Origin: Liolophura sinensis
Taxonomy: Eukaryota; Mollusca; Polyplacophora; Chitonida; Chitonidae
Reading direction: 5' to 3'
Assembly: GCF_032854445.1 (NCBI RefSeq)
Contig: NC_088306.1
Span: 25,825,764-25,889,763 of the forward strand
Length of the DNA stretch: 64,000 bases
Positions 397 to 43,000 of this stretch are shown here, in pieces (position 1 is the first letter of the stretch; every line of letters begins with the position of its first letter). The translations under genes were made by a program, and so were the position numbers. The notes beneath the pieces were generated by a model. That model saw nothing but the letters and a program-made list of their open reading frames with translations. It was not told where the DNA came from and ran no database searches.

Positions 397-3300
397 GTAG
401 GTCATTTGTGGATCAATAGGCCTCATCTGAATTACCTCCCTTATCACACAATAGCATGCTATGATTTACATGTATTACGAAATTAGTTTTTCAAACGTTG
501 GATCTTCACTGTTGAAGTACGCCTTAGGCCTACATGTAGGGTATTTCACAACACTATCAATTGTTAATAGGCAAGAGAATGCAGAAGACATCAACCACTG
601 AGAATCACAGAAATGTCGAGAGATGAACTGTTTTTTCGCCTCATGTAGAATATATGTTTGAGTTTGCAGAAGCTGTCTGTTCTTCACCATAGCCTACACA
701 TATTTCACTTTTGATTTCTTACACATTTATCCTGGGCTTCATAAATCAGTTTACAATCTTAAAATTTCTCTTGATTTTATAGTTTCAACCAGTTTTTGCT
801 GCTTTTAACTTTGATACTTGCCATTGGGCATTTTCAGAGTTCCCACCCCTCTGGGGGAGACACTACCGTGTCTAAAATGACACCTATATAGAATAAATGA
901 GGCTGTTATTCTAATAATCTGCAGTATTTCAGGTGCATCATCTCAAGGTATAAACAGATCACTGTAATTTTTGTGTACAAATTTACCTGACTCGGCTACC
1001 TGCTGATGTTCCTGGGTGTCTCCTGGCGTCTTGGCATCCTCCCTCCCTGTTGTCGTATAAATGAAGTTTTCTTGAGTACGATAATAACTCCAATCAAATA
1101 AACAAATTTATTTCCTGTCTACAGATACAGTTACACCAGAGAGGCTTGAAGCTGGAACAGACTCTGTACAAACAGGCCAACCAAGCTCTGACAGATGACT
1201 ATGAGAGTGTGAGAATGGCTGCTGTTAAGCTGGTCTGGCTGCTCTGTCATCTCTACCCAGAGAGGTGAGATTAGCTGTAGTGTAAAGCCAGGGTTAGGTC
1301 ATCAGGGACAGGTGCCATACATGCAGACCAATCTGGTGTTAGAGGCTGGGGATTGGGGTGGGTGGTGGTGGTGGTGGGGAGGTGGGGAGTGGGTGGGTGG
1401 AGTTGAAAAAGGGGTATCACAAGGCATTTGTAGTGCTGACCTGCAGTCAACTCAGTCAACTCAAAAAGACAGAAACACATCAGTAATGAATGTGAAACTC
1501 AAATTTCGAATCTTTTGCATTTGCACAATGATTATTATTTCGCACATGAAGCACTGAATATTTTATGACAAAAATGAAAATCTTGATGCAAATATCTTAC
1601 CATTTCATCCCGTCCAGTCCCGTTCCTGTTAGCGACTCAGATGAAGAGTTACGCATGGTTGATGACGGATTTGCTAAAATCTGCAACATGGTCAACGATC
1701 TGTCGGTGCGTGTGAGAACGGAGGCTGCTACACTATTGGTCAGTTTACCTATGTACATTTTTTCATGTTCTCAGTTTTCAGTGGATGGAGATGTCAGAAA
1801 AGAAGAACAAAACAACTGTCAAGTCATTGTGAAGTAATATGTAGTAGTAACATCAATATTTGCATTTTTAGCTTGGTATAACTCTGTATATCACTTTATC
1901 AAGGAAAATTAAAATTCGCATTTAAAATTTAAAATGTGTTGTTGTAGTCAGGATCTTAAGATGCACTTGTCTTCCACCACTACGTTCATATCTGTATGTC
2001 ACATGGCAGAAAGTTTGTCCGTCACTTGCCAAAGGCCAGTGGTTTATCCTTGTCACTCTGGATTCGACCAAATAAAGGTGTAGCTAATATCAGTTCTTTT
2101 ATATCAGTATTCTATCAACAAACAATCAAATGAATAAGTAAACAAAGACGTAGTTAATAGGATGTGAAATTGTGTTGTTCATATTTATGTCATATTTACC
2201 ATACATCTTCCAGGGTTCTCTTCATCAAGTTAGCCCGAAGTTTCTGGAGCAGACTTTGGATAAAAAATTGATGTCAAACATGAGGGTAAGACTTACTGTT
2301 CTTAACGTGCTGACGTTTTAAATCTACAGACTGTTCAATGACATATATGCACATGTGTTACTGTTAAAATATGCAGGTGTAAAAAAAAAACTGTTGCAGA
2401 ACAGAACAATTGAAAGGCTATGATCCCATGTATTGATGCAAATGAAAGAGGTGGTATTTCGGTATTAAATATTACCAGAGTTGTGATCAGTGAAATGTCA
2501 TGCTACTGTGCAGTGAAAAAAATCCAGCTATTTCTGGTTATTTGGAATGACACGTCGGATTAGGAGACCTTGTTGGTAGAATTCATAGAAATTTGCTCTG
2601 TGTAACATCCGTAAATAAAAATGATGTCTGTTGTCTTTGTTTTTTGTGTGGTTCATTTGTTTTGTATATAATGGCCAATGATACTTAGCAGTTGATGAGC
2701 ATGTATGACCAGAGTGTAAATGTGATATATAAAGAAATATTTGGAAAAGTGACAGGTACTAGGATAAATTTGTAGATTTCCCAGCTTGGGAAAGTTTATT
2801 AGTAACTTACCAAAGGTCTGTGGTTTCTCCACTCCCCCCCTCCCCCACCACCACCGCAACAATCTGATTTATAACTGACCACCATTGCAGAAATGAAAAA
2901 TTCGTGAGTATGGCATCAAGCAACAATGAAATAAATCGAATAATAAGTGATACTTGATATAGCTTTCATTAGCATCCTATCACTTCTTCACTTTCTGTAC
3001 AGTCTTTACTTCAATGAAGTTGTAAATTCTGGGTAATTTTGGCTGACATTTTACCATTGTCAAACTTGAGCTGAAGTTGTCAATAATTACCTGTCTGTGT
3101 TATAGAGAAAGCGCAGCGCCCATGAACGTGCCAAAGAGCACTATTCCACAGGGGAGTGGTCTTCTGGGCAGAAATGGGCAGATGATGCCCCGAAGGAGGC
3201 TGTGGACCCGGACAGTATTAACGTGATGAGCTTTGGAGCTTGTGGGGCTTTTGTACATGGGCTAGAAGATGAGTTCCTGGGTAAATACATCACGCCCTTA

Positions 3301-6300
3301 AATCCTAAATAAACTGAACTAGTAAAGTATAGCACGCTCATTTGAACCCATTATACAAAACTCTATCCAGATTATATAGCGCTCCCTTATTATGCCGAGA
3401 CATACTGTAGGTCTGTGGTCAAATTTGTTCATATTTTATGTTAATATTGAAATACAATAAATGACAATAAATTTCTTCCGGGACTAACTTGCATGTTTTC
3501 CTTAATTGTGAGAGCTCTGTTGATTTTAGAAAGATGATTTGAGGTTTACTTGATACTTGGGATGATATTCTACTTGAAAATTGTATTTTTCAGCACCAAA
3601 GACAATATTTTGTGACATTTAATTGCCTGTAAAAATGAACTTTTGTGGGCAAAATTTTAGGTCATTTAGGGTAATAAAACTTATTGTCCCAATCACTTAA
3701 ATAATGGTCAACCTACAAACTTATTTTACTTATATTATACTGTCTGAGGCAGTATAAAAGCTTTCCTTGGTGTCCAAAGATTTGATCACCATAAGGATAA
3801 TAGATTAATCAAATCGGTTTTACTGAAAGATGACCAACCGTTGACCAATCAGATGTTGTGGTTGAAGAGGTTTGGCAGGTTCCTTTCAAGGTCAGTTTTG
3901 TTTGTCTGTGGTCTGGGTGACAGCAGCTGCACCCAGTTTACATGGCTAAAAATGGAAGTGTTTGTATAACTGGCCTAGTGGCCGTAAAATGCCACGCTGC
4001 CGATGGCTAACCCGTGATACATGAGGTCATGCCTCCTTATTCAGCTTTCGCTTGAATCTCGACTCTTATCATTTTACGTCATGATGTTTGGCTATGTTTT
4101 TACGAAGATTCGGTGCCTGTTATCATCAATAAAGCTGATCAGCTCCCTGAAATATTCTCAAGTGTGGCCTAAATGCCAGTCAACTATGTAAAATCAGGAG
4201 TACAGAGAGACGTTTGCCACTACATTATGTGCTAGTTCACCTGTCTAAACTGCCTCTGGCCTGATAGGTCACTCTGGCGATGTTACTGAAAATACACAAG
4301 GCAATACTGAGGAATTATGGGAAATATTTTGTCATGATAGGCAAGTAGTGTTTCACCAGAATGCATTGTGATGCATTCACCAGAATGCATTGTGACGCAT
4401 TCGTCTCTGAATGGAAATGTCAGATCAACCATTGCCGAGTGGGAATGGAAGTACCTAGATGGGGAATGATATTAAGAGAGCAAGGCACACTTACCTATTA
4501 TGTACTTGTGGTAAAATGTAAAAAATTAGCCAAATTGACAGATTTCATGAGTTATATAGTTTAAACAATTATTCTTATCTTATGTTTAATTGTATTTGCA
4601 GAGGTGAGGAATGCTGCGCTGGACTCATTGTGCGAGTTGGCTGCCCAGTCCCAGAACTTTGCCGTTCTCTCCCAGGACAGCATGATCGACATGTTTAATG
4701 ATGAAATCGAGAGTGTTCGACTCAATGCCATCAATAGTCTTCGCAAAATCAGCCACCAGGTGGTGCTGCGAGAAGATCAGCTAGATATCATTTTAGGCGT
4801 TCTGCAGGTTTGTATTTGACATGTCAGATAAGTGAAACTCTGTTAAAATGCTGCTTCGGCCCCAACAGAGGCCAGGTGGAAATATTAAAATGAAATCATT
4901 TTAGGGCCAAGGCATTCAGCAGGTATGTATGTGAGATGTCATATAGGTGAAACTCTGTTAAAATGCTGCTTCGGCCCCAACAGAGGCCAGGTGGAAATAT
5001 TAAAATGAAATCATTTTAGGGCCAAGGCATTCAGCAGGTATGTATGTGAGATGTCATATAGGTGAAACTCTGTTAAAATGCTGCTTCGGCCCCAACAGAG
5101 GCCAGGTGGAAATATTAAAATGAAATCATTTTAGGGCCAAGCATTCAGCAGGTTTGTTTGTGAGATGTCATATAGGTGAAACTCTGTTAAAATGCTGTTT
5201 CGGCCCCAACAGAGGCCAGGTGGAAATATTAAAATGAAATCATTTTAGGGCCAAGCATTCAGCAGGTATGTATGTGAGATGTCATATAGGTGAAACTCTG
5301 TTAAAATGCTGCTTCGGCCCCAACAGAGGCCAGGTGGAAATATTAAAATGAAATCATTTTAGGGCCAAGGCATTCAGCAGGTTTGTTTGTGAGATGTCAT
5401 ATAGGTGAAACTCTGTTAAAATGCTGCTTTGGCCCTAACAGAGGCCAGGTGGCACTCTGCAGGTTTGTTTGTGAGATGTCATATAGGTGAAACTCTGTTA
5501 AAATGCTGCTTTGGCCCTAACAGAGGCCAGGTGGCACTCTGCAGGTTTGTTTGTGAGATGTCATATAGGTGAAACTCTGTTAAAATGCTGCTTCGGCCCC
5601 AACAGAGGCCAGGTGGAAATATTAAAATGAAATCATTTTAGGGCCAAGGCATTCAGCAGGTATGTATGTGAGATGTCATATAGGTGAAACTCTGTTAAAA
5701 TGCTGCTTTGGCCCTAACAGAGGCCAGGTGGCACTCTGCAGGTTTGTTTGTGAGATGTCATATAGGTGAAACTCTGTTAAAATGCTGCTTTGGCCCTAAC
5801 AGAGGCCAGGTGGCACTCTGCAGGTTTGTTTGTGAGATGTCATATAGGTGAAACTCTGTTAAAATGCTGCTTCGGCCCCAACAGAGGCCAGGTGGAAATA
5901 TTAAAATGAAATCATTTTAGGGCCAAGGCATTCAGCAGGTATGTATGTGAGATGTCATATATGTGAAACTCTGTTAAAATGCTGCTTCGGCCCCAACAGA
6001 GGCCAGGTGGAAATATTAAAATGAAATCATTTTAGGGCCAAGGCATTCAGCAGGTATGTATGTGAGATGTCATATAGGTGAAACTCTGTTAAAATGCTGC
6101 ATCGGCCCCAACAGAGGCCAGGTGGAAATATTAAAATGAAATCATTTTAGGGCCAAGCATTCAGCAGGTTTGTATGTGAGATGTCATATAGGTGAAACTC
6201 TGTTAAAATGCTGCTTCGGCCCCAACAGAGGCCAGGTGGAAATATTAAAATGAAATCATTTTAGGGCCAAGGCATTCAGCAGGTATGTATGTGAGATGTC

Positions 6301-9300
6301 ATATAGGTGAAACTCTGTTAAAATGCTGCATCGGCCCCAACAGAGGCCAGGTGGAAATATTAAAATGAAATCTTTTTAGGCACTCTGCAGGTTTGTTTTT
6401 GAGATGTCATATAGATGAATAGATGTTTCTTGACTTGTATATATCTTGTATTAGAGTACTACTCCAGTTGCAAAGGTGGAAATATTAAAATGATAGAAGG
6501 AATTGCTATGGAACACAGCTAATACCATGGTTTGAAAGGATTTGCACTGATTAACAATACGAAAACTCCTCTGACTTCCCCAGAGTTCCCAGTTCCCCAA
6601 AGGAAAATCTTTGGCAATTTCCGTAAAGTTAGCCTGTTGTGACATGATAATAATGCCTATGTGACATTGAACCAGGCAGATGCAGAGTAGGGTCCTTAAG
6701 GTGGATGACCTCAACAGGGTGTAGAAGTGTATTAAAATGTTTGTCATTGTACTGTTCTTAACAGGACTAAAAATCTATTTATCCACTTTCTTATAGAAGG
6801 CGTTGAAAGTATCATACTAATTTTTGTGCTTTTTGTATGATAGGATTTCTCAGTTATATCAAGGGAGGCTCTTCGTGAGATGTTAGGGAACATGCAATTG
6901 GCCACCAAGGAATGTCTAAACAGCTGTGTCGTTGCCCTATTGGATAATTTGAAGAGATACCCTCAGGACAAGGAATCAGTCTGGAAGTAAGACTAGTACA
7001 TTTAGTAACATTTTGGTCCACCTTTTTGCATGTGACATACAAATGTTATTTATGAACGACTGCAGAATAGTTCTAATCATGTTCTTGTATTTCTGTGAAA
7101 AAATTCAGAAAAGCTCATTTCCTTATTGCTGATATTGCTTGGCTCAGTTATGCCGTGAATTTTGATACTGCGTTGAAAATTATGTTAACGCAGCTGTGAT
7201 GTCCTTAACTTCAACAATTTTGAATCAATTTTGAGAAGTACATGCAATGGCTTAAGTTTGAATTTCATTCATTGGTTGAGACAAACTAAATGTTTGTTCA
7301 GTGTGCACATGTGAGCAGTGTCAGCTGTTGCTAGCCGAATGGTTTATCCAGGGTATTGACTGCAGTATAAAGTGAAGTATTGTTGAGGAAGATATTGACA
7401 ACCAACTTCCTGTTTAAACAGTCAAATTTGTGAAAAAGCGAAAATATAAAAAATGTGTGAAAAAAATTTGGGTTCAGTTAGGCCATAAAAAATTAAATTA
7501 ATTACATGTTTCTCAGACACTTTACCGATAATATGCCAGCAACCTGCGAATGGTCGTGGGTTTCCCGCAGGGTTCTGCCCTGTTTCTTCCCACCATTATG
7601 CTGGCCGCCATCGTATAAGTGGAATATTCTTGAATACTGCGTAAAACACCAATCAGATAAATAAATATATAAATAAACCCCAGGTACAGAAAAATCTGAA
7701 TCCTTTGTTTTCACAGGTGTTTCCAGCAGCTGAGTGGGAACCACCCTGAGTTGACCCTAGCCCTGGTCCCTGATCTGCTCTTAGTACATCCTTACTTTGA
7801 CACCCCAGAGCCCAACATGGATGACCCTGCATGTATCCCTTTCATTTTTATGTAGTTGCAAGGTGGCAGGTTTTAAACCTGACTCAAGACATTTGACTTT
7901 CTATTCTTTAAATGTTGTACCCATATTATGAATTCCAAAATGAATCAATCATGCTTGTTATGTAATTGAATTAGTTTATCCTTTTTATGATTTGATTGAT
8001 TGTGTCCAGTTTCTTCCTCCCAAAAACCTGACTATCATCATATAAGTGAAAAACTCTTGTGCATAGTGTTAAACCCCAATCGATCAATCAATCAATCATG
8101 AACTCTAAATAAGAGTGGGATTTGTTACATGTAAAAACAATCAAAAGATATGTTGTTTGGTTTCCTTAATCAGTTTTCCTAGAAAGGCATTCTTCAGTAG
8201 CACTGTAATATTTTCAGTAGTTAGCCAAGGGCTAAGTGTTGGTACTTTCTGTATTTGCAGTTTGAAATACTGGCCTTCCCACTGATCCTGTTGTGTGAAC
8301 ATAGGATTCATCTGCATTGCATTTCAGTGATGCAGCACTTAATTCATCCACTTTAGTTATTTTTATTAGAATTATTATGAGTCATTTGATCAGTTGATAC
8401 AATTATTATGAATCATTTGATCAGTTGATACAATTATTATGAATCATTTGATCAGTTGATGTTTTCATAAATCAGTCAATTTTTCAGTCTCTTATTCCTT
8501 GACTTACCCCAGACATTAGCATCCTGGTGTTGGTGTTTAATTCAGCCCCTCACTGCCCCACCATCATGCCACTGTTCCAAGACTTCATCTGGAGGCATTA
8601 CAGGTACCTGAGAGACAGTTTACCAGAGCTGGTACCTGACATACAGGTTAGTAAAGCCCCATCTAGACTACCCAACATCACTCAACTTTTGTTGACTAAA
8701 CAAGAGTCAACTTGAAGTAGAGTCAACCAGTTGAGCTGTGTTGAGTAGTCTGGATGGGTTCTTCTACTCCGTTCAACAACACTCAACACCGTCCAGTTTT
8801 GTTGAATCGGAACAAAATCTGATTTGCAGAGTGGACGGGACACTCAACTTACCTCAGCAGCATTCAACTTGCTGGTGAGTGAACAAAAGTTGAATGATGT
8901 TGAGTACTGTAAAGTACTTGTTAGTTGCTGGAATTTATTTTGGCGTATTTTCTCCAAAAATATGTTCGCGGGAATCAATTTTCGCATATTTAAGAAAATA
9001 CTGAAAAACAGATCTTAAAATCTTAAGATTTTCCAACATATTTTATGGCCGAAATTATTCAAGCATGTAAAACAGGTATCATCATGGGTTGCTTTAATCC
9101 TCCTATGTTAATAGCGCTAATCCTCATGATTTGGATCAGAGATTAAAACAATGGGGGATGGATTATCACTACATTAGAAGATTACTTTCGCACCTGCCGT
9201 GAGCAGTAGGCAAACAGGTGTCCCTTCTTTTCGAATCATTGATGAGCATTTTAAGCACCTGGCAGTTACCTGTCAGCTTTTGAGCAGTTCAACACAAAAC

Positions 9301-12300
9301 ATATGAGTTCACCATTATCATCGCCAGTCACTTATTCTTTATCAAGTAACACGGTAAGTTTTGCATTGTTTTCAGTATTAATCGTCCTCTGTAGCAGGTC
9401 AGAAACCGCAAACATTGCCGTAGCTGTCAAACAGCCATTGTGTTGTTGCACACACTTAACAGTGTGTTAGAAGCTCACCCATTGGACCACAGGAGAGACA
9501 CAGCCAATGGGATGGCGCGTATCAGAGCAACATTCACTAGAAGCCAGCACGTGCTGGTATCTACTTTTCTGTTACTTAACAGGCATAGCGAAGATTGCTC
9601 AAACTTAAGAAAGATGAACTCCCACTTTTTTTTATAACCCCCCAAGCCTTAGCACCAGAGTTTGTATATATTTAAACCATTACTTCCCTTCCTTGATGTT
9701 GAAAAATGTAGCTGGCCTGTCAGGCTTTCTTAGCATGACTACCATCACCCTGGCTAAGTTTTCACTTCATTATTACTACTACCTGTAGTATATGATCCAA
9801 TATTGGATATTTTTTCCGCTGGAATTATTTATTGACCGTGAAATCGGCGAAAATTAGTTCCACATGAAAATTAAGTACTTCACAGTAGTCTGGATGGAGC
9901 TTAAGTGATGATCAGTGAGTAAATCCAGGCACAATGCAGGTACGTGAGGGACAGGTTACCTGAGAGACAGGTTACCTGAGCTGGTACCTGACATACAGGT
10001 GAGTTGATGATGATTAGTGAGTAAACCCAGAGACAATACAGGTACCTGAGGGACAGGTTACCTGAGCTGGTACCTGACATACAGGTGAGTTGATGATGAT
10101 TAGTGAGTAAACCCAGAGACAATACAGGTACCTGAGGGACAGGTTACCTGAGCTGGTACCTGACATACAGGTGAGTTGATGATGATTAGTGAGTAAACCC
10201 AGAGACAATACAGGTACCTGAGGGACAGGTTACCTGAGCTGGTACCTGACATACAGGTGAGTTGATGATGATTAGTGAGTAAACCCAGAGACAATACAGG
10301 TACCTGAGGGACAGGTTACCTGAGCTGGTACCTGACATACAGGTGAGTTGATGATGATTAGTGAGTAAACCCAGAGACAATACAGGTACCTGAGGGACAG
10401 GTTACCTGAGCTGGTACCTGACATACAGGTGAGTTGATGATGATTAGTGAGTAAACCCATAGACAATACAGGTACCTGAGAGACAGGTTACCTGAGCTGG
10501 TACCTGACATACAGGTAAGTTGATGATGATTAGTGAGTAAACCCAGAGACAATACAGGAACCTGAGAGACAGGTTACCTGAGCTGTTACCTGATATACAG
10601 GTGAGTTGATGATGATTAGTGAGAAACCCAGAGACAATACAGGTACCTGAGAGACAGGTTACCTGAGCTGTTACCTGACATACAGGTGAGTTGATGATGA
10701 TTAGTGAGTAAACCCATAGACAATACAGGTACCTGAGAGACAGGTTACCTGAGCTGGTACCTGACATACAGGTAAGTTGATGATGATTAGTGAGTAAACC
10801 CAGAGACAATACAGGAACCTGAGAGACAGGTTACCTGAGCTGTTACCTGATATACAGGTGAGTTGATGATGATTAGTGAGAAACCCAGAGACAATACAGG
10901 TACCTGAGAGACAGGTTACCTGAGCTGTTACCTGACATACAGGTGAGTTGATGATGATCAGTAAGTAAACCCAGAGACAATACAGGAACCAGAGAGACAG
11001 GTTACCTGAGCTGGTACCTGATATACAGGTGAGTTGATGATGATCAGTGAGAAACCCAGAGACAATACAGGAACCTGAGAGACAAGTTACTGGAGCTGTT
11101 ACCTGATATACAGGTGAGTTGATGATGATCAGTGAGAAACCCAGAGACAATACAGGAACCTGAGAGACAGGTTACTTGAACTGGTACCTGACATACAGGT
11201 GAGTTGATAATGATCAGTGAGTAAACCCAGAGAATGCAGGAACCTGAGAGACAGGTTACCGGAGCTGGTACCTGACATACAGGTGAGTTGATGATGATCA
11301 GTGAGTAAACCCAGAGACAATACAGGAACCTGAGAGACAGGTTACCTGAGCTGGTACCTGACATACAGGTGAGTTGATGATGATCAGTGAGTAAACCCAG
11401 AGACAGTTCAGGAACCAGAGAGACAGGTTACTTGAGCTGTTACCTGACATACAGGTGAGTTGATGATGATCAGTGAGTAAACCCAGAGACAATACAGGTA
11501 CCTGAGAGACAGGTTACTGAAGCTGGTACCTGACATACAGGTGAGTTGATGATGATCAGTGAGTAAACCCAGAGACAATACAGGAACCTGAGAGACAGGT
11601 TACTTGAGCTGGTACCTGACATACAGGTGAGTTGATGATGATCAGTGAGTAAACCCAGAGACAATACAGGAACCTGAGAGACAGGTTACTTGAGCTGGTA
11701 CCTGACATACAGGTGAGTTGATGATGATCAGTGAGTAAACCCAGAGACAATACAGGAACCAGAGAGACAGGTTACCTGAGCTGGTACCTGGCATACAGGT
11801 GAGTTGATGATGATAAGTGAGTAAACCCAGAGACAGTTCAGGAACCAGAGAGACAGGTTACTTGAACTGGTACCTGACATACAGGTGAGTTGATGATGAT
11901 CAGTGAGTAAACCCAGAGACAATACAGGAACCTGAGGGACAGGTTACTTGAGCTGTACCTGACATACAGGTGAGTTGATGATGATCAGTGAGTAAACCCA
12001 GAGACAATACAGGAACCTGAGAGACAGGCTACCTGAGCTGGTACCTGACATACAGGTGAGTTGATGATGATCAGTGAGTAAACCCAGAGACAATACAGGA
12101 ACCTGAGAGACAGGTTACCTGAGCTGATACCTGATATACAGGTGAGTTGATGATGATCAGTGAGTAAACCCAGAGACAATACAGGAACCTGAGAGACAGG
12201 TTACCTGAGCTGGTACCTGATATACAGGTGAGTTGATGATGATCAGTGAGTAAACCCAGAGACAATACAGGAACCTGAGAGACAGGTTACCTGAGCTGTT

Positions 12301-15300
12301 ACCTGACATACAGGTGAGTTGATGATGATCAGTGAGTAAACCCAGAGACAATACAGGAACCTGAGAGACAGGTTACCTGAGCTGGTACCTGACATACAGG
12401 TGAGTTGATGATGATCAGTGAGTAAACCCAGAGACAATACAGGAACCTGAGAGACAGGTTACCTGAGCTGTTACCTGATATACAGGTGAGTTGATGATGA
12501 TGATCAGTGAGTAAACCCAGAGACAATACAGGAACCTGAGAGACAGGTTACCTGAGCTGGTACCTGACATACAGGTGAGTTGATGATGATCAGTGAGTAA
12601 ACCCAGAGAAAATACAGGAACCTGAGAGACAGGTTACCTGAGCTGGTACCTGATATACAGGTCTCTCGGGTACAATACAGGTACCCGAGAGACAGGTACC
12701 TGATATACAGGTGAGTTGATGATGATCAGTGAGTAAACCCAGGGACAATACAGGAACCTCAGAGGATAGCTGAAATACAGGTGAATTGATTGGTGAGTAC
12801 ACCTAGAGACAATACAGTTACCTGAGAGACAGGTTACCTGAGCTGATACCTGACATACTGGTGAGACAATACAGGAGCTTGAGTGAGACGGTTTACCAGA
12901 GTGGCACCTACATGTATATGTTCTTGGCTGTAGGCAGATCTCCATAGAATTTCTGCATGAGTTGACTGAAAACAGTCATTGAATGAACAACAGGGTTGCC
13001 TTCTTTGCAAGGTGTCACTGCCACTGGCTTCCACTTCGGCCGTACATGGAAAGATCTGCCAGCAACCCGGGCATTGCCTAGTTGCCTCCCTCTATAATGT
13101 TGGCTGTCATCGTATCAGTAAAATATTCTTGAGTATGGCGTAAAACACCAATCTAATAAATAAGTTAATCCAGTAATGAAACTGAAAAGCAAGTGCAAAA
13201 TGTAAATAATACTTTTGTTGTATTTCAGTCCACGTGTGTGATACTGGAGAAAACTGACAGCAAACACGCACACTCTGAAGGGTCAGGGGAGTTTCTCAGG
13301 CAGTCCGTAAAACGGTTAGAGTGTCTTGGGTCATGTGACTTATCTACGGCTCAGCAGCTAGTGGAAATCACGATAAGGTAGAGTATGATGCCTTTGGAAC
13401 TATGTTGATGAGAAAGGTGACAGATAGAAATTCTTTGCCACTGTTTTCAGTGAAACCAGATTTATTTAAAGCAATGCTGTTTGCAAAACTTTCATATCCA
13501 CTTCTCACCAAAAAAGTTTTTTTCCCTGTACATATTGGTTACTATTCTTGTTCAAAACAGGTTTATTTTTGTGATGCACTTTGTTTAAGCCTAATTTTCA
13601 CTTCTTACCAGTATTGTTGCCTTCTTTAATAGTATGTTGAAAAAGTACCCAGGGACCTTTTGTAAGTTCAGTGCTTGCTGGCACCCTCACCTTGTTGGAG
13701 TTCATTATGTCCAGTCCCAGGACTTGCCTCTTTGGGTGTGATCTTCCATCCTTAGATTTATTATGTGCTGTCTGAGGTGATGTGTTGGTGTCCCAAAAGC
13801 TCACCTCTATTTCCTTCACTCTTCACAGTAAAACTAACAGCTGTTTTATAAAATGCATGGCACAGATGAAAGAAAAAAAATAAATGTGTAATAATATTTA
13901 AATAATAAATGTGCAACCAGCATTTGAAGAAATGAAAACATCTGCTGTAAATGGCCTAAAATTTTGTCCATGTTGTTTTGCCAGATTCGGAGGTTTTTAT
14001 TGATCCTTGACGTGTTTGTTTGGAAAGTAGACTGATAATATCCAACTGAAAAATGTCAGTTTCAACATAGTAAAAAGTATAATGAAAAGTAATATTTGAT
14101 GGCTGCTTGCCTCTACAAGTACGCCAAGTAAGTCAGTTACAGTATTCCCCTTAGCACTATAGCTCACAGAGATGTTGTTGGACAGTTCACAGCCGATGCC
14201 TCTTGTCCCAAGCTATGTATTTTATTTGAAGTTACCTTTTGAAGTTGTTTTTCTTCAGGGATTTTGAGCGTGTGTCAGAATTGGACCCCAGGGAGTCTGC
14301 GTCAGCAGAGTGTGTGGCTCTCTTTCTCAGCACCCAGCAGGCTCTGCTTAAGGTATTGGGTTCCTTCTTCAGTTGTCATTATTGCTACCGTGTTAAGATA
14401 ATGTACTGCAATAATTTTGGTGCAGTTGAAACAGTAGTACCTGAAGAACATGATAGCGTCTTCTAGCACGAATTTCAGATGAAAAATTTTGAAAAAAAAA
14501 AATAAAATAAAAATGTAAATTGATTTTTAATTACTGTAAAAAGCTTATATCCAAATAATAATTTCCCGTAAGATATTCCCTCAGCCGCAAAGCCAGGTTA
14601 GTGATAATAGAAAGGAAAATTTATTTCTTTGTTTTTTGCTAATCACTGCTGAGGTTGGTAGAGAAAACTGTCGAGTCAGAGTGAGGGAGAGGACAGTATG
14701 TTTTGATAGGGACCTTACAAATAAAGTGATGTTCATTGTAAAGTGCAGCCGATCCAGCTGGGAGTTTGTTTTGAACTCTCAACTTCATTGTCACTGAGAC
14801 CCTCTTTTTAAGAGAAGATAGAAAGATATAGGCACATAATCTTAAACAGATGTCAGTATTTTGCTACAATTACAGTATGTGTACGAAAAGATTTTGTTTG
14901 GTTTCAGATTTTCATGTTATTCACAAAGTGATTGGTCCATGTTAAGTTTTGAGCACACTTCAGTATTTTGCTACATTTACAGTATATGTACAAAAATATT
15001 CTGTTTCAGATTTCTACAGTTGGGTCATCATCCAGCTTAACAAAACATATCAAGACTTTGATTGATAAGGTGAGGATGTAGCTGAATTTAAATGCATGTC
15101 TTGTAAAAGTTGGTGTTGGTTGTGGAGAGTCTTGGATCCAGATAAGATGATGACTTGATTGTTTGTCCCATGGACAAGCTGTACACAAAATTTTATCCTG
15201 ATTCTTTGCCTAAAAAAAGTCGCTGAGAGACAAGTAAACACAGGCAAAAAAAAAAGATGAGCTCTTTGGCAGAGTCAGCATAATTGAAGTATGACCAAAC

Positions 15301-31000: not shown

Positions 31001-34000
31001 CTGACCCCACTGGGGTAGGCCGGCATCAATTTTTTTACAAAGTTTTTGTACCATATCTAATAAAGGAGTGAGATTTTAGAAAACAACAATTGAGAGAAAA
31101 TAAAAAAAATTCTATCGTCCATTGTGGGGGGCTGGTCTTGCCAGACCTACATGTACATGTACTGTATATCCACCAGTAACAAACTTATTTTTAACAATGT
31201 TCCCATACATGATTCATAATACTAATAGACCTGCACACGAACAAGGAATTCATGATGTGGTGAATTGTACTGATACATGTAAGCTGAGCTTATGGAGAGG
31301 TAAAATCTATGGTTGCTGCAGGACCAAATATTGAATCAGTTTGCTTTAGAATGGCCTCCCCAAAGCCTAAATCTCTGCTGGTTACTAAACTAGAAACGAG
31401 CGAGTGAAGGCTTAGGCATGTATAGGTGGTGACCTAAAATTTCACCCAAGACAACATGTACATGTAAGTGTCCTATTTTGCTTGAGCGGCCTCTGTGGCC
31501 GAGGGGAGTTAGCATGCCAGCACCGCGCAATGACCCAGGTGCCTCTCATCAGTGCGGTTGCTGTGAGTTCTAGTCCAGTTCATACTGGCTTCCTCTCCAA
31601 GGAAGCGGGAAGGTCTGGCAGCAAGCTGCGGATGGTCATGGGTTTCTTCCCACCATAATGCTGGCTGACGTATAAGTGAAATATTCTTGGGCACAGCGTT
31701 ACACACTCAATCAAATAAATAAATAAATATTTTGCTTGATTTGTAGTTTTGTTTGTTCTAGAAAGTTGTTTTGAGGTTTGTGTGGAAGGCACAGTGTAGG
31801 ATGGTACTACGATCTTAATGGAAAGTTCTAGTTTCAGCAACAAACATAGGTTTAGCCAGGGAGTGGTGTCTGTGTCTGAGATGCCCTATTCTGACCAAAT
31901 TAACCCAGGACAGATATACATGTATATCGGAAATAGGAGAAAATTAGACGGCAATTGTGGCTAAATCTGTGGCACCAAATAACATTACTGATATGCTTTG
32001 CTTCCAAAACTACACTTATTTTGGGAGAATTTTTTTAGGGAATATTATGCACGTGTCTTACATGTTATATGTGAATCAATCAAAGGCCTAGGCATTTACT
32101 TCTGATACAGGACATGTACATTTCTTCTCATTCGTATGAATGGGATAGGGTTCTCATTCTGTTTTAAAGATGCCCCCATCTGTAGAAGTCCCTAATCACC
32201 AAGGAAACCTGGTATGCTCCCTTAAGGGCATTGCTGCAAGCATAATCCATAAAACCAGCAAGTGGCTCAGTTCTCTGCCATGTACAATTCATGAACATGA
32301 TTATGCATATTAATGTATGCAAATGTGAGCAGGCTTTTGATATGATCAATGGCCATGCTGTGGTTCTGTGGCCAGTGGCTCCATTGAAGACAGTGTAGAA
32401 CTTCGGGTATCTGCCACTGCGTCTGCAGCAACCTGCGGATGATCGTGGGTTTCCCCATTGGCTCTGCCCTGTTTCCTCCCACCATTATGCTGGCTGCTGT
32501 TGTATAAGTGAACTTTTCTTCAGTATGGCGTAAAACACCAATCAAAGTAGGTTTGTAAAAGTAAAAGGTTTGTTTCAGTTTGGGAAATGCTCTGAGCCTT
32601 GTTTTCGGCTTTTCTGTGTACTATATAATAGGCATATAATAAGGAAGACATGTATGATGTAATTTGGAAATGTATTTTTGGGAATTCAATTTTGCACACA
32701 AATGTGAATATTGGAAAGAATTTGTCTGCTCAAGTAATACTGCATATTTGATATATTGAAGTATATATTAGTGCAGGTTACGTACATGTACATGTATATA
32801 CATGTACAAATGTGCAAGAATTTACAAAAAAAACCTGACCTGGCAGAATATTGTATATATTACATGAAGCCTGGATGGCTAGGAATATTCACCCAGAATA
32901 TGCTAAATGTATAGATTACATGTATATGGTGCAGTGTGCTACCATATTAACAGAGGACTTGCCTGTACAACATGTACTGCACATTCTGATTTGTGTTTTG
33001 GCAGGTGCAGAGGATGACTGGACAGAAGGCACTGGGCAGTTGTCCTTAGGGGGTCTCTTTGTGGAACAAGATGCAAAGTAGTCATCCAGCTGTACAAAAG
33101 CCACAGATTACAGCTCTGGTGTTGACAGATTACAGCGACTGTAGGGCAGCTACAACATCAACAAATCTGTGATGCAGAATTGGAATGTTTGCTGAACGTT
33201 TCCTTTGATGAGAGGACAGGGGTGGAAATGCTGCCATATCAAACCTACATGTGCATGTGTAATGCATGTAGGTTATGACAACAATATATCTCAACTAGCC
33301 AAACTTTGACGATTTTGTGACAGTTCAGAGTCATGCCAAAGGGGAAGATGATGCGTAAATTCATTGTGACAAAGCCTCCTGACAGGGAGGCGGCAAAAGA
33401 GGATGATGCGGAAGTTGGAGTGGCCTATGAGGAACCCCTGAAGAGAAGATATGCCACAAGGATTCTGTTCATTTTACTTCTGGCCTCTGGAGCTGTTCTG
33501 ATAAGTTGTGGTGTGACATTACTGGTGACATGTCGGGCAAAAGTTACCAAGGAAACCTGCAGAATTGTTCTTAATGACGAACAGTGCTCGTACCTTGCAG
33601 TGTCCGCCTATTTCGGATGTGTTCTTATTCTGGCCACTGTTTTCGGTTTCGGCTGCGTCGGACGCAAAGCCATGGCTGTGATGTTGTTGCCACTATTACT
33701 AGGAGAACTTGTATTTGGAATTTACGTCCTCTTGATTGAAAAACCTTCCATAGACTCTGCCGTGTTGACGGATTTGTCTTCCAGAAAATCACAGTGTTTC
33801 GGTTTTAGTGGTAACAGGACCACTCATCATCATGATTCAACAACACCTTTTGCCGACCCGTTTCAATGCTGGCAGCAGCGAACAATGAAGTTAGCATCTT
33901 GCAAAGATCTGTGGTTGAGTCTAGGAATTGAATGCCATGCTCAAGAGAGAAATCAGACAGGTGTTCATACACAGCTTTCTGCTTCGGATAATGATGCTTT

Positions 34001-37000
34001 GTTAAGAAACTGTTCTGCCGAGGTCGCTAAGAAAGTTTCTGGTATTGTGTGGAGCAAAAGGCTCACTGTTGGACCTATTTTAATCGTCATATCGCAGGTT
34101 CATTTAGTGTCTGCAATTTGCCTGTGGTTCCTCAGAAAGACAACTAGTGGGAGCCGTGGCCTTGGTCTTATTCCACTTCCTAATCTGCCTAGACGCTTTT
34201 CAAGGAAACGTTCAAGGTCAAAGGCAAACGCCCAGTGCGGAACCAGCGACCAAAGTCACCAGTCCCTGATCCTACAGCCAGATGACACACTGGGTAATAT
34301 GCAAAAATATGTCTTCAAAAAACTTCGTCGACAGAAGAACACCTATGCAACAGTTTGACTGAGAGCCTTGCTGAAGCGTGAAAGAAAAATGTATGTCTAT
34401 TTTGTGTAAATAACTTGGCAATCAGAAGTGCCTGCAATTCTCGGGACTTGTACTGCAGTAAAATTACATGTAGCCTCTCTGATGGTTGCATCATTGCATA
34501 CCGAGAATTGTTGTGTTCTGAATATCTGTGTTAAATGACAGATAGAATACTTGTGTGTGCAAATGGTGAAAGTACTTGAGCATTTACTGATTTCTTGTCA
34601 AACTTCCTGGTAGCATTTTTATTCTCGTCTTTTTGCAAAATCACTTTTACAACCTGTAGGTTTCAACAGGCTATTTAGGATCTCATGCCAGTTTGTATAA
34701 TGACATTTTTTCATGCAAAAATGACTATCACTGCTCTAGGAAAATAACTTGCACTTGTACAGGATAGCAAGTCCTGCAAAGATATATACATGTATGCATT
34801 TGGAACAGCTAAAAATGCCAGGTAGGATAACTCGTTATTGTGTCATTAAAACTTAACAAACGTGATTGAATTTATGGATTCATTGATAAGCTGATGTCTG
34901 ATGTACTGATATGGAGGTCACTATGAAATTATGGGCATCGGTACCTCATGAAGTGCCTAGACTGACACCATCTTTGATGTTTTCTTGTGCTTCCAGCTTT
35001 GTTTTGAGGTGCCTTTCTTAATAATGCCTTTGTCCTCATAACTCATCAAATATGTGCTTGTTTATTAAAGATGCTGTACATGTTCTCACATTTATGTATG
35101 TTATTTTCTCCATTTTTTTTCAACAGAAAATGGAAGCTTTTTATTTATTTTTGTGATATCATGTTGGCGTGGACATGAAAATGCATTTTCTAAGGATCTT
35201 AACTTTGGTATTTTTTGAATATACTGAAATACATGCACTATGTGAAGATTGTGTGGATTTTATATCTTTTTCTTTTGTTTTTTTATGTGAAGACTGGATT
35301 TTTTTTATCTTTTCTTTTTGTTTTTTTAATTTTTAGGAAGGTAAGATTTAAGGCAAGCTTGCTGTTACATGTATATTAGTATGACAGGCCAGATATAACT
35401 GGGGGGGGTCGGGGGGGGGGGGGGGGGGGGGGGGCTTACAAAGGCAAGCGGGACTAATATCTGGGCCAATGAGGTAATTTTTCCTGCGCATACATGTAGG
35501 TGATTCGGGTTCAAACTGTTTTTCCCTTGTAAGACATGGGCTGCGTGTTTGCCCTCAAATCTTCATCACAAAGGCAGAAATGATAACACAGCTTTGGCCC
35601 CACCCCACAAAATATATATACAATCTATATAAATAGGTGTATGTAAAAAAAAGCCTGATAATTAAAAAGTATTGGAATTGTGTCAATGCTGGGCGTCTGC
35701 ACCCACCAACCCCACACATCTGTCCACTGTATATGTTGACTACAGTTTGGAGGTTACAACTTGCACCAGAACTGTTGTTGTTGTAAGAACTGTGGTCTTC
35801 GCTCGCTTGTCAAGCTGTGCATCTCTATGTACCATGAATGGGGTATTTCCTCATTGGTCATGAATTGATTCGAGTTTTAATGTCTGTGGTTTTGGTTAAA
35901 TTTCATGTTTTGTTGAAGCATTTCTGGCTGATTTATATAATTGACATGTAAACTTAATTTGGGTTGTGGTTAATTCTTATCTACCTTGAGACAGCTGTGG
36001 CATTTCTATGTGTGTTATATACATTATACACATGCATGTATATCTCATTTTGCAGTTAAATGGAATTCTTTTAACCTTATGAACTTGTCAGTGTGTGGTG
36101 GATGATGAAATGGTTGTAAGCTGTTGTATTTAAGAACTCTTTCTTTAAACAAAGCATTACAGTATCATCTCACATTATGTCTGTTATGCGTGGAATGCTA
36201 ATTATAGAAAATGATGCAGACAGTATACTATTATCTGTTGCATTACATTTTCTTTCTTTGGTGAAACAACAACAACACAGCATTGCACGTGTATACAATG
36301 TACATACATGTACATGACATGGTTATGTAATATGCATTGTTACATTTGACACTTTTGTATTACATTCATTGTTTTACCCAAAGTTTTTTTTCCAGTGTTG
36401 GTTTTGTAAATATGTCTCTGTACCTGTACAGTAACAATATGGATACTTTGTTAAATTATAATAGCAATGTTACATGAATTGAGTGTATATACTTACGTGA
36501 TTGCTGTTTGTACACATTTTGAAGTTAGTGATTTCAGCAAAAATTCCATTTGATTCTGACTGTAAAGATTTATTACATATGAGGTTCAGTTCTTGTTTGA
36601 AATTTTATAGTATTAAATAAAAAAGAACCATTCAGTATCGTTGAAACCATCCTTACAAATTGTTTGTCGCATAAGAAGTAGGGTGGGGTGTGAGGTGGTG
36701 GCTGGGGCAACATGTTGGGTCTCTGTGGTATGATACTCCTGTGAGGCAGAACTAAATACGTCAGTATTGGGACAGGCCTTCTACAAGGCGACTTCCGTGT
36801 GATACATGTACGACCAGAAACCACTGAAAGTCACATCAAACCTCCCCTGAACTCACCCCAGGCTTCCACAGACTTTTGATGAATAATTTTGTGAAAAGCG
36901 AACATCTTCTTAACTTAATGAAGCTCCCAAGCATGAACACCTTTAATTTATGCCTTACTACTCACATGAAGAAAACTTGAACAAATTTTCTTATATGATA

Positions 37001-40000
37001 TCCAGGTTTCAACTAAGACTTGTGCCTTTAATATGCCTGGTACTAGATGCTAGGATGTGCGAGAAAGGATGTGGTGTTTTTTTTTTTTTTTAACTTCAAT
37101 GACTTCTCATCGTACATGTAGTACTGAATGAAAAATGTTCTGTTGTGCAAGTATCAATAAATGATTTTAAAAAAAGAAAGTAATAAGAATCCCTCAAGGA
37201 GGGTTACATACATGTACTAAGGGCATGTATGTTCATCAAGTGGGATTATCAGTTGTTTTTAGTCTATCCCTGTAATGTAAGGAATAAGTCGCACGAAACT
37301 CTTTTCGTCCATAATACCATAAAAATCTAAATCTCCAAAAAGAAATGGCATAGGTGTGCAGTTCAGTGTCATTTATTAACAATCAAATTTCTGGCTATGA
37401 CACTTTGACATGACTGCAAAACATGGCACTGAGTGAAAAGGTCAAAGGTGGGTCATTTGCACAGTCCCCACACCTCATACTTTTGTTCACAATGTATTCA
37501 TTATAACAGCGTTACCTTTCCTCAGTGACAATCAAAACTGACTTGCACATTTCTATGCAGAACTCCTAACAGATTCATGTGGCCATTGCATTTGCTTTTT
37601 TCATGGTGACTTCGGAATACAGTATGTTGGTGTATTACAACACACACTCTGTGCCTCAGGACAATCCAGTCCCAACAGCGAACAATGACGAAAGGGACAT
37701 AACTCTTGCTATGAGGGTGTGCCCATCAAAAACACCTGGCAAATCTTTATACTAGTGGCCTGGATCTGTAACTTGGTGTTGATTTTGGTGACTTGTGCAC
37801 TTCTGAATGGATATTCCCTAAACCTGCACGATGTATGAATTGTATTTTTTATATGACTTACTAGGAGACGAATCCATTGTTTAACTGCGATAATTTTAAT
37901 TTTAATTGGTTTATTCCAAATACCTGTTGGCTTTGTTATCTTGTGAGAGGTTTAGAATTGGCTGATCCACGATTCTACAAAACTTACTGTCATGATTTTG
38001 ATACTCCATCTTCTGGTACACATTTTCTGAAACATTCTGACTTGTTAATGTTGTACAAATGTCTGTGATGTTGGCCAGTCGTTAAGATTAAGAATAAAGT
38101 TGTATTCAAAGTTTCACAGCTAAGTGAACAATACACTTTTGTTCTAGTAAAAGCCCAAGCAGAGTTGAGACATTCTTTCCCTAATTTATTATTGTACTGA
38201 CACATTTGATTTCTACAAGAAATGAATTTTCATTGTTATTTACTGGAATAAAATATTTTGCTAACAGTTTCATTTGTTTCTCTTACAAGATCCTGCAACT
38301 TTCTGGATTGGTTGATGTTAAACGGTAAAAAGGGAGTGGGTTGTGGCCAAATGGTTTGGACACTCCCTTTTCAAGCATGGTTCATGAGATGAACATTGAA
38401 GAGTAAACTGAAGACTACTCGTCTTCCGCCCATAGGGTGTGTATATCTGTATCTCACATGAGGGAAAGTCTGTCAGTAACTTACAACAGGTTGGTGCTTT
38501 ACCCCAGTCACACTAGTCTCCTCAGCCCATTAAATGATTAAAATGGTATTTAAGTTAATCGTTTGGCCATAAGCTAAGACATCCATTTTACACAAAAGAG
38601 CATTGTTCAAGTATAATTGACTGAGGTTTAATTTTCACTTCAAAAGGTTTGGAACTAACAGAACATAATATTGCCTTTCATAATGGTAGTTGAATAGTTC
38701 TGAGTATTCAAGACTCCCATGCTTTCACTATTTGGGGATCTTGGTGGCAAGAAATGGTTGTTAGTGCTTTTGTGTGGCAGTACATGAAAGTTCCCCAAGG
38801 CTATGTGCACTCCAGGTGCCATCATAAAAGTGAAATTTCCTGAATAAATGAATGATTATGGCCGGGGTCCACACAACTAGACTTTTGCCAGTTCTGGTAG
38901 CCTGATGTTTATAAAGTTCATGATAGTGGTAAAAAACAGGAAAAAAATGTAAAGGAATGTATTGGATTTGAACCCTACACCACCAAGCATCACTCACAAC
39001 TGGCCAAGTACTGAAGACCAGAACAGAGATTAGGCAGCTTTGACCTTCTGCTGATACCCCAGGACAAAAGGTAGAAAAAATACATTGTTGTGAAGTTGGT
39101 GCCCGAAAGCAAAAGACAGTAAGAATACAGAGCTAATGACCATTCCCATGGTAAAACTGCAGTCAATGAGTACATGCAGTCTGTCACGAAGCTCTTGTGA
39201 TCTTTACATGGGACGGTTTTTGTCAAATTTTTGTTGTTTTTTTGGTCAAACCGTGCAAGAAAAGTAAGCAAGTACAAAAATAACTCCTGTAGATTTGTAA
39301 TTGTGACATCAATGGCCACCAGAGAGTGTGTTTGTGAGTTTAATGTTTTTAAGCGGTTTTGTAAATTGACCTACTTTTGAGCCAAGGCCAGTATGGGCCT
39401 TATTTGCATACCGAAGTAAAAAGTTTTTTTACAATATGGATAGGGCGATTTACCTAAAAACTGTAAAATAAAAGTTTATCTCGACAGGTTTAGCCGTTTG
39501 GAGAAGATTTTTTTTAGCTGATCAATAAAATTCAAAATGGCCACTAAATGACTGGTAAAACAGCACAAAACATCAAAAGTTGCTTCAGATGTTCCTGATT
39601 AAGACTCCAAAGTTTAGTTTTTCTACCTTTACCAGTTTTCGAGATTTTGCAATTTTACGAGTTGACTAAGAATAATAATACTAATAAGCCGAACAATTTC
39701 CTAATAAAATAAAGTAATTGGCAAGAGAAAACCAACTTACCGATGCAGTTATCTTGAAGACATTTGATATCGTGTGCAACTGATGGGTTTCTGGGTCCTT
39801 CTGTACGCTGTAATATTCAGATACAACCTTATTTACATGCTTTTAGCAGCCTATGACAAATTTACAACACACCAGACATTATAAAAGATATTTACAACTG
39901 ATCAACCAGCATGTAAGATATTTACAACCAATCAACCAGCATGTAAGATATCTACAAATGATCAACCAGAATTTAACATATTTACAACTGATCAACCAGC

Positions 40001-43000
40001 AAATATGATATTTACAACTGATCAACCAACAAATAGGATATTTACAACTAATCAACCAGCAACAAACACATTTGACTTTTTTCATCTACTATGAGACACA
40101 AAATTTAAAACTGGTAACCAGTATAGGAAAAAATTAAAGTTGATTAACCATTAAAGACACACTTACATGTATAGCTGATCAACCAGCGTTTGACACACTT
40201 ACGACTGATCAACCAGTATTTAACATACTTACGACTTATCAACCAACATTTAACATATCAACCAACATTTAACACATTTCCGACTTATCTACCAACATTT
40301 AACACATTTCCGACTTATCTACCAACATTTAACACATTCCAACTTATCTACCAACATTTAACACATTTCCGACTTATCTACCAACATTTAACACATTCCA
40401 ACTTATCTACCAACATTTAACACATTTCCGACTTATCTACCAACATTTAACACATTCCAACTTATCTACCAACATTTAACACATTTCCGACTTATCTACC
40501 AACATTTAACACATTCCAACTTATCTACCAACATTTAACACATTTCCGACTTATCTACCAACATTTAACACATTTCCAACTTATCAACCAACATTTAACA
40601 AATTTATATCAAACCAATAACTCTCAACCAGGATAGGACTCATTCATGACTCCTCAGCCAGCACACTGTTTCTCATCTAAAGTTTAGCACTTTTCAAGTG
40701 ACACATTTTGCTTAACTCTGATTGAATCATCCACCTTATAGGGCCACTATAAGGCCAAGTTTCTGTGTAGTTTGACTAATTTTTATCAGAGTGTTGGTAT
40801 CAAAAGTATTTACTGAGGCCATTATGTGTTTCTGAAAATGTATTTTGGCATGCCAAACTCTAGTGAAATACAGTATTTACATTTGATTGACCAGCATAAG
40901 AGTAAAAGAGATGACCCGTTAACGAAATACCAATCATGCCCACAACCAACCTACTCTCCTCATGCACAGGGCGGTAGTCTTTGGTCCACTAAGATAGATT
41001 CCATTGTTATAGCTGTCCTAGAGAGAGTACGACCAAACGGCTTGGAAAATAAATCAATAAATGAGAGGGTGACCTACCTGACAAGATCCTTGTAGAGAGC
41101 CTTTGAGATGGACAGGTAAGGGTCTACTGTGTCCTCAAACTGACAGACCTGCCCTCCAAGACACAAGTGAGAGAAAATCAGGAACAGTAACTCATTCCTC
41201 TCATCGTCATTGAACAAACAGTAGTTGTCAGAGTCGTCTATCAGTAGCATCTGAAACACAGTTTTGTAAATAAACTAAGATTGCATCCATGACATTTACT
41301 CATTTTGCCTCATTCCCAGAGTTCTATTGATCATGAAATAGTCTTGAGGGTTTTATTGGAAGGCAGGATGATATCCAACTCAAAAAAAAAAAAAAAAAAT
41401 GGCCTCTAAAAATGCATTTTTCAAGTCAAATTTTTAGGGCCATTACAGTAGTTAATACGCAAAAAATTGTAAATTTTCTTCTTTTTGCTGTCTTTGTGGT
41501 AGTGTTTTAATTTCTTTACTTATTTGATTGCTGCTTAATGATATAGTTAACATGAATTTTTCACTCAAAACAATGGCGTCCAGTTTAATGGGTGGAGGAA
41601 GCTCAAGTGGCTGGGTAAACCACTGATTTCTGGCAAGGTACTGAGAAACTTTCTCACGTGTGATGCCATGAGCAAACGAAATGTCCAAACATCTGTTTAT
41701 TGTTTGTGAGACCTTGGTCAAAACAAAAACAAAACAAAACAAAAATAATGGGAAAATGTGCAATCAACCACTTAAAATTTATCAACAAACGGTATATAAA
41801 ACAAACTTTAACATGCTTGAGTACGGCGTAAAGCACCAATCAAATAAATAAATAAATAAAACAAACTTTATCATCATGTATTATCTTACCTTTCTTAATT
41901 CGTCTGAAATCTGGAAGTCTTCAGCAAATTCATCAAAGCATTTGTGAATTTGGCCAGATTCTCTAACCACATTTGTTTGGTACAGGCGGTCAAAAAATGA
42001 TAAGGATAAAACTGAACAGTTCATATCTTCTATCTTCACAGATGTCGCTGCTGTTCCTGTATTAAACATGGTAAAAAAATACACATAAAACACATCTCTT
42101 CAACTAATAAGTCCAACCAACGTTTCAGGGGGTTTGACGCAGATATCGGCAAGACAGGTGGAAGTTATCGCAAAGTAACGTAGATAAAAGATGATATTTT
42201 ACTGTAGGTTGCTAGAGTGAATACACATCTGTCTGTTGACTTGACCATGCCATTGGCACCTAACATAAATTCTCGTCTTTCAGCTGAGGTAGTTTGCCAG
42301 AGCTTCCACCTGTCTCACCGATATCTGAAACGCCAGTTGGGATTATCATCTTCAAATTCAGTCATGGACTAAATCAAAGGGAGGTAATCTGTGCCATTCT
42401 TGCTGGTCTGTGGTCATTTCAGAGCAACAGGATTACCAGTGACCACAAGGTGGTCTGTTCTATCATTAACCAGGTGGGTAAATACATCGTTCAAATTAAA
42501 AGAAAAATCTGAGTGGGAGACATCAGAGAAAGAGTGAGTGAATGAGTGAGTGCTTGGGGCTTAATGTCCTACTTCACAATGTTTCAGTCATATGATGATG
42601 AAGGAGTCCTTGAGTGCATGTTATGTTACAGGATGGATTTCCAGTGCCCGAGCCATTATACTGATACAGGTCAACTATCGTTGCAATATCCCCATAATGC
42701 TGATTGCCAAGAGAGGAAGTTACTTCCTCATTTAAGGTCTTAGGTGTGACTTGAACCAGGATTGACCCTGGGCCTACTGCCATCCACAGCGGACACTCTA
42801 CCATCTGAGCTATCGAGGCCCGTCAGTCAGAGAGTCAGAGAAAGACTATTGGAAGCAATGAAACATTAATTTATTTATTTATTTGATTGGTGTTTTACTC
42901 AGGAATATTTCACTTATACGACGGCTAGCATTATGGTGCGTGGAAACCGGACAGAGCCTGGAGGAAACCCACGACCATCCGCAGGTTGCTGATAGACCTT

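Follow-up and report, generated by a model that had tools for sequence, protein, structure and literature searches.

The INTS4 locus of Liolophura sinensis

The window analysed here is a stretch of 64,000 nucleotides (nt) from the mollusc Liolophura sinensis (NC_088306.1, positions 25,825,764 to 25,889,763 of the forward strand; G000:C12:25825764-25889763), part of a 609-Mb genome in 632 contigs. Its forward strand carries, up to position 18817, the exons for the C-terminal part of Integrator subunit 4 (INTS4), and two introns of this gene carry tandem arrays of units bearing copies of a 5' splice site (donor), one of which was the subject of an original prediction made from the letters alone. 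The assignment to INTS4, already part of that prediction, is borne out by the joined exons, which match PDB chain 7cun_D (INTS4) with an E-value of 3.8e-196 and are colinear with it over the junctions of exon f and exon i. In a tree of 25 INTS4 proteins, built without annelid or brachiopod rows, the window protein falls in a fully supported group of nine rows whose six named members are molluscs.

Exon f (4602-4807, + strand; placed by homology within the colinear INTS4 match) ends at the real donor CAG/GTTTGT, and exon i (8513-8646, +; 134 nt) at CAG/GTTAGT; the exon following the latter is exon j (13229-13377, +). Among 13 INTS4 donors tested, only those of exons f and i are copied in the following intron, and these introns (2,036 nt and 4,582 nt, respectively) are the longest of 13 examined, while none of 13 INTS4 acceptors tested has copies upstream. 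A small INTS4 exon seen within 1739-3105 is unplaced; its donor is outside the 13, and one of the examined introns spans it.

Anatomy and origin of array 1

Array 1 occupies 9905-12662 (+), beginning with the remainder of its first linker and continuing as 86-bp units (9958-12662; 31.5 copies with 95% matches by Tandem Repeats Finder), and it ends in a degenerate right edge (12663-12911, +). Between 8647 and 12960 lie 32 donor copies, 30 of which read CAGGTGAGT (CAG/GTGAGT) and two CAGGTAAGT (CAG/GTAAGT); on the + strand of the window, CAGGTGAGT occurs nowhere outside the 30 array copies. The duplex energies of these copies with U1 are -12.2 and -12.1 kcal/mol, compared to -9.8 kcal/mol for the real donor of exon i.

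The last ~50 bases of exon i are themselves the first unit of the array. Identity to these bases is 84-94% in 31 of the 32 units and 69% in the unit at 12710, and all but one of the 32 keep an open frame through the final 16 codons of the exon, the exception at 11969 bearing a stop. The end of exon i aligns to its own intron with a score of 88, where 60 shuffled versions of that intron did not exceed 30, and 42 of 46 bases are alike between the boundary across donor i and the array unit. The counts of 30 and two copies, their better fit to U1, the duplication of the exon end and its junction by 86-bp monomers and the open frame in most copies thus all stand as originally predicted.

The placing of the array in the intron after exon i also holds, except that it does not directly follow the exon. 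An insert of 1,247 bp (8655-9901) intervenes, flanked by TAA direct repeats at 8652-8654 and 9902-9904 and recognized by its terminal repeats and by the empty site obtained on joining its flanks. It consists of nested terminal inverted repeat (TIR) elements located in the first linker, the inner of ~980 bp (about 8907-9887), the removal of which restores the ~40-bp inverted ends of the outer. The joined flanks form a linker that matches those of the other units in length and register, so the insertions are later than the first duplications.

Exon i is the source of the array 1 units, because the unit is found nowhere else, the serine of the exon is conserved, the units are derived and the right-most copy is exon-like. 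A genome search with the unit, which gives a lower bound on matches, placed all 36 of 36 at the INTS4 locus, the exon's own copy included; this is the check for a dispersed satellite named with the original prediction, here run in this genome. All of the 11 INTS4 rows aligned, the window protein among them, have this serine, whereas 28 of 32 units have CAGGTT (with the derived AGG) in place of the exon's CAGTTT. The right-most copy retains the exon form GTTTACCAGAG, scoring 46 where 1000 shuffles reached no more than 26. The exon as source and the exon form of the outermost copy were both anticipated, as was later homogenisation within the array, with which the derived units and older-form edges agree. 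An older state at the edges and a uniform middle would fit the pattern expected from concerted evolution of a tandem array. The units differ among themselves, and copies sharing variants form blocks.

A second array in the same gene

Array 2 (4808-6419, +) begins at the donor of exon f and is made up of units of 115 and 82 bp, in which GCAG/GTWTGT occurs 15 times. It is unrelated to array 1 and lay outside the finding of the original prediction. Its right-most unit shares 40 of 47 bases with the exon f boundary (score 59, where 1000 shuffles gave no more than 24), and the exon part alone scores 28 against that unit, compared to 20 in shuffles. A part of the array 2 unit at about 4954-5014 is like dispersed sequence on C3, C6, C7, C8 and C9, over 51-58 bases.

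Donor and acceptor arrays across the genome

Triplets of the consensus donor CAGGTRAGT gave 1,093 matches genome-wide at periods of 29-59 bp, 1,572 at 59-89 bp and 1,158 at 90-120 bp, compared to 251, 176 and 176 for the reversed triplets; these figures, which are matches and not arrays, make consensus-donor triplets 4-9 times commoner than the reversed patterns. Among the matches listed for the 59-89-bp class are 14 arrays along C1:1.29-14.9 Mb, and on inspection seven of the 14 begin at the donor of a coding exon confirmed by homology. The genes are SUFU (Pfam 7.8e-10), alpha-L-fucosidase (Pfam 3e-4, below Pfam's cut-off), DNA-PKcs (5.4e-16), DNA ligase (2.3e-8), an Fe-hydrogenase-like protein (1.8e-13) that is presumably CIAO3, TRPM (PDB 2.5e-11 for a hit spanning both exons, the edge exon alone being without a Pfam match) and POLR3A (PDB 5.5e-9 together with the preceding exon). 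An eighth case is a polycystin-like exon at L026 (about 718-760; G000:C1, about 3.806 Mb), for which 14 of 14 PDB hits are polycystins (E 0.04 to 0.65) and where the donor CAG/GCGAGT is followed by copies reading CAG/GTAAGT. L009 and L047 offer no more than an open frame that is like the unit at its end, and at L033 the array lies 45-120 nt beyond an exon-like donor.

The extent of exon carried by the units varies, with at least 26 exon bases copied in four of the seven (SUFU, DNA-PKcs, Fe-hydrogenase-like and POLR3A) and only 2-3 in the other three (fucosidase, TRPM_2 and ligase). Arrays encountered at these loci independently of the motif agree in part. A second TRPM array, of 75-bp units over about 2.3 kb, copies an exon end coding NILLVNLLIA together with a GTGAGC donor, its exon matching Ion_trans at 0.0047, below the cut-off; another DNA-PKcs exon (Pfam 1.6e-11) is adjoined by an array that starts at its donor with a weak boundary match. 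The arrays are as small as about 6 units and as large as some 3.6 kb of 40-bp units, and the unit length is not divisible by three in 11 of 12 arrays. Further arrays neighbour several of these loci: 45-bp at L047, 32- and 42-bp at DNA-PKcs, 23-bp at L009, 51- and 37-bp at L021, and 76-bp at L033.

Acceptors can be amplified as well. Intron 1 of SUFU bears an array (L048 1448-2115; G000:C1, about 2.06 Mb) of about 11 units of 61 bp, each presenting a pyrimidine tract, TAG and an exon start (TTTTCCTGTAG/GATGGG), and its last unit is the real acceptor of exon 2 as placed by the protein. That acceptor arrays might be as frequent as donor arrays was considered and rejected, the acceptor motif giving 42 matches compared to 13 reversed, with 21 of the 42 from one array; the bias towards donors is only a hint, acceptor motifs being degenerate.

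Real donors and their copies

Wherever the protein fixes the real splice site, it is the exon-side copy, that is, the first of a donor array and the last of an acceptor array. Energies with U1 favour the copies in INTS4 exon i, POLR3A and TRPM_2, are mixed in INTS4 exon f and disfavour the copies in array 1 of DNA-PKcs; in the other six cases the median equals the real donor, an equality partly built in by the picking of copies by motif. How a weaker real donor is chosen over stronger ones downstream, the puzzle that was originally posed, is real, yet it is not special to this intron. Nor are better copies the rule: other genes have copies on a par with the real donor, and one has worse copies.

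From the real donor to the first copy downstream, the distance is 1,352 nt in INTS4 exon i and just 40-115 nt in the other 10 of the 11 cases. Upon read-through from the real donor, a stop precedes the first copy in seven of 11 cases, the first in-frame stop ending 69 nt past donor i and 12 nt past donor f; in SUFU, array 1 of DNA-PKcs and the Fe-hydrogenase-like gene the copy precedes the stop but the frame is shifted. Within array 1 of INTS4, none of 372 AGs has a pyrimidine fraction above 0.56, while the lowest among 13 real acceptors is 0.62. Selection keeping or destroying the donor copies was also considered and rejected, the donor columns not being exceptional.

A proposed mutational origin and splicing from the exon side

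The copies are most likely by-products of tandem duplication, ignored by the splicing machinery for want of acceptors, and both INTS4 arrays would then be minisatellites of exon-intron boundaries, akin to the "mirages" of amphioxus discussed below; we hold this account to be probable. A short tandem duplication across the exon-intron junction would place a second exon end, donor and intron start inside the intron, whereupon slippage or unequal exchange could amplify the copies and homogenise the middle, leaving the exon at the left edge and the last copy at the right edge in the older form. The first linker of array 1 would later have received two TIR elements. As part of the intron the copies would be spliced out, and exon definition, which pairs a donor with a near upstream acceptor, would be the simplest account of their staying unused, given that the only acceptor near them would be that of the real exon; copies in array 1, where an acceptor-like tract is lacking, could not delimit separate exons. 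If the first copy were used, the exon would be 1,486 nt long instead of 134 nt, with an early stop and, presumably, nonsense-mediated decay of the product. As a cause of the duplication, hairpin-prone exon ends were considered and set aside, the DNA folding of exon i being mildly unusual (z of -1.5, or -0.9 without the insert) and that of exon f ordinary (z of 0.3), against a background of 211 windows with a lowest decile of -1.5.

A broader proposal, possible but advanced tentatively, is that a recurrent mutational process amplifies splice boundaries, chiefly donors, that hundreds of genes may carry tandem decoy donors as good as the real one or better, and that the spliceosome would systematically take the exon-side copy regardless of donor strength; "hundreds of genes" is here an extrapolation from 14 arrays in 14.9 Mb and one spacing class.

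Several observations, besides the built-in equality already mentioned, weigh against these readings. With the first copy only 40-115 nt off in 10 of 11 cases, the choice cannot come down to exon length by itself, and before the insert the first copy of INTS4 array 1 too lay close to its real donor. The fucosidase gene has its first perfect copy (+75) in frame and ahead of any stop, such that use of this copy would keep the frame. As many as 13 of 83 equal windows are as invariant as the donor columns, which fits neutrality but could also fit use. Array 2 has at least one AG with an acceptor-like tract (one in 119 with a pyrimidine fraction of 0.75 or above); the exon part of exon f scores 23 against the consensus unit, which is not significant (26 in shuffled sequence), and part of this unit (about bases 32-92, which belong to its intron portion) is similar, at 81-85%, to 8 further sites elsewhere in the genome. 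Elsewhere, the boundary match is not clearly above that to other genes' units in TRPM_2 (19 compared to 16), DNA ligase (22 and 20) and array 1 of DNA-PKcs (23 and 20), although these three arrays nonetheless start within 50 nt of the donor. Three of the 14 arrays (L021, L028 and L055) have no exon by eye, and what borders a 56-bp array at the fucosidase locus on its 5' side is a retroelement-like frame rather than an exon. Finally, the scrambled motif CAGARTGGT gave 497 matches (346 reversed), about one third of the donor count. These come from a few large arrays (12 in about 112 Mb among the matches listed), and the array density of donor and scrambled motifs differs with P 2e-7, or P 0.002 for 14 compared to 2 in a shared stretch, but the arrays were counted by eye, after the fact, from ~100 matches listed per motif.

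Four other explanations of the INTS4 arrays have to be set against this origin by duplication. The copies could be functional, as decoys that hold U1 and tune INTS4 splicing or shield a long intron from early polyadenylation, or as a source of poison isoforms that lower INTS4. The GT is kept in 32 of 32 counted copies (a product of the counting method), 30 of them share one hexamer and use of a copy would yield an early stop, yet the unexceptional donor columns and the presence of like arrays in many unrelated genes, some with poor donor copies, make such a function unlikely. Improbable, and somewhat more so, is a masking of the donors from U1 by self-complementary units (an ACCTG-ACATA-CAGGT hairpin). 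The TTACCTG of the unit resembles the 5' end of U1, its folding with DNA energies is more stable than that of shuffled units (z -4.3), and the 32 donors of array 1 have a median accessibility of 4e-4 compared to 2e-3 with shuffled flanks. Real donor i is, however, about equally hidden (9e-4), real donors b and l are more so (6e-5), and the 15 copies of array 2 are more open than with shuffled flanks (7.5e-3 and 2.5e-3, respectively); computed accessibility fails to separate copies from real donors, and masking was rejected.

The remaining two explanations concern the reality and the direction of the duplication. Tandem arrays are prone to misassembly, but an assembly artefact is very unlikely for array 1 in view of the differences between its units, the blocks of shared variants, the transposons within the array and the recurrence of the same anatomy at other loci. 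Least credible of all is that the 86-bp repeat is a dispersed satellite from which the exon end was taken: nothing in its favour was found for array 1, the resemblance of part of a unit to 8 other places being confined to the unrelated array 2, and both the genome search, with every match at the INTS4 locus, and the conserved exon state in 11 INTS4 rows speak for the opposite direction.

Other features of the window

Beyond INTS4, exons at 54897-56893 look by eye like a biliverdin reductase B-type NAD(P)-binding protein and are followed just past the apparent stop by a 71-bp x 2.3 repeat (56937-57101). A single open frame of 345 codons at 33321-34358 appears by eye to be an intronless membrane protein, and a 30/59-bp tandem array lies at 39881-40605. 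Neither this array nor the repeat at 56937-57101 has a link to an exon end by eye, and a Pfam search of one forward frame over 18.9-48.9 kb gave no match.

Boundary minisatellites in a wider context

How one 5' splice site comes to be chosen where several are good has long been asked, for the most part with engineered constructs. The arrays described here would be an evolved, natural series for it, set in different genes, with copies that match, surpass or fall short of the real donor and with varied distance and size, such that RNA-seq of a single species could measure the rule of donor choice. If the broader proposal is true, a rule independent of donor strength would be visible genome-wide. 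Boundary minisatellites would also extend beyond the cephalochordates and would be able to lengthen introns, both INTS4 arrays being in the two longest of the 13 introns.

Two known systems invite comparison. Intron gain by tandem duplication of AGGT (the Rogers model), exemplified by a potato RdRp (PMC4974935), likewise places splice signals in repeats. In INTS4, unlike that model, the intron exists beside the array and its acceptor lies outside any unit; the first 55 bases of exon j score 19 against the upstream intron, compared to up to 28 in shuffles, so an acceptor derived from a repeat unit was not found.

The closer parallel is with amphioxus. Mirages are minisatellite-like tandem duplications of exon-intron boundaries, described in the globins BflGb6 and BflGb9 (PMC3087553) and in PGBD5 (PMC3902484), with Adh3 and troponin C cited there as further cases; mirages are reported not to disturb regular splicing. 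The INTS4 units too span the boundary and carry AG/GT signals (32 donors in array 1 and 15 in array 2), donor and acceptor boundaries are both found in this genome, the authentic exon stands at the edge, and the middle is homogenised while the edges are not (AGG in 28 of 32 units, with the right-most copy in the exon form). Judged from their letters, the INTS4 arrays thus appear to share with mirages the duplication of a boundary, the splice signals and a concerted evolution from which the edges are excluded. A literature search for molluscan or other cases, in which some further candidates were judged by title, returned "mirage" in this sense only in the two amphioxus papers. Unlike the amphioxus cases, the present ones belong to a mollusc rather than a cephalochordate and occur at many loci in one genome, and array 1 has 32 units compared to 6 and 3 reported for the two BflGb6 haplotypes (PMC3087553). 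Within the literature searched, what is new is the animal group, the number of copies and how abundant such arrays are in a single genome.

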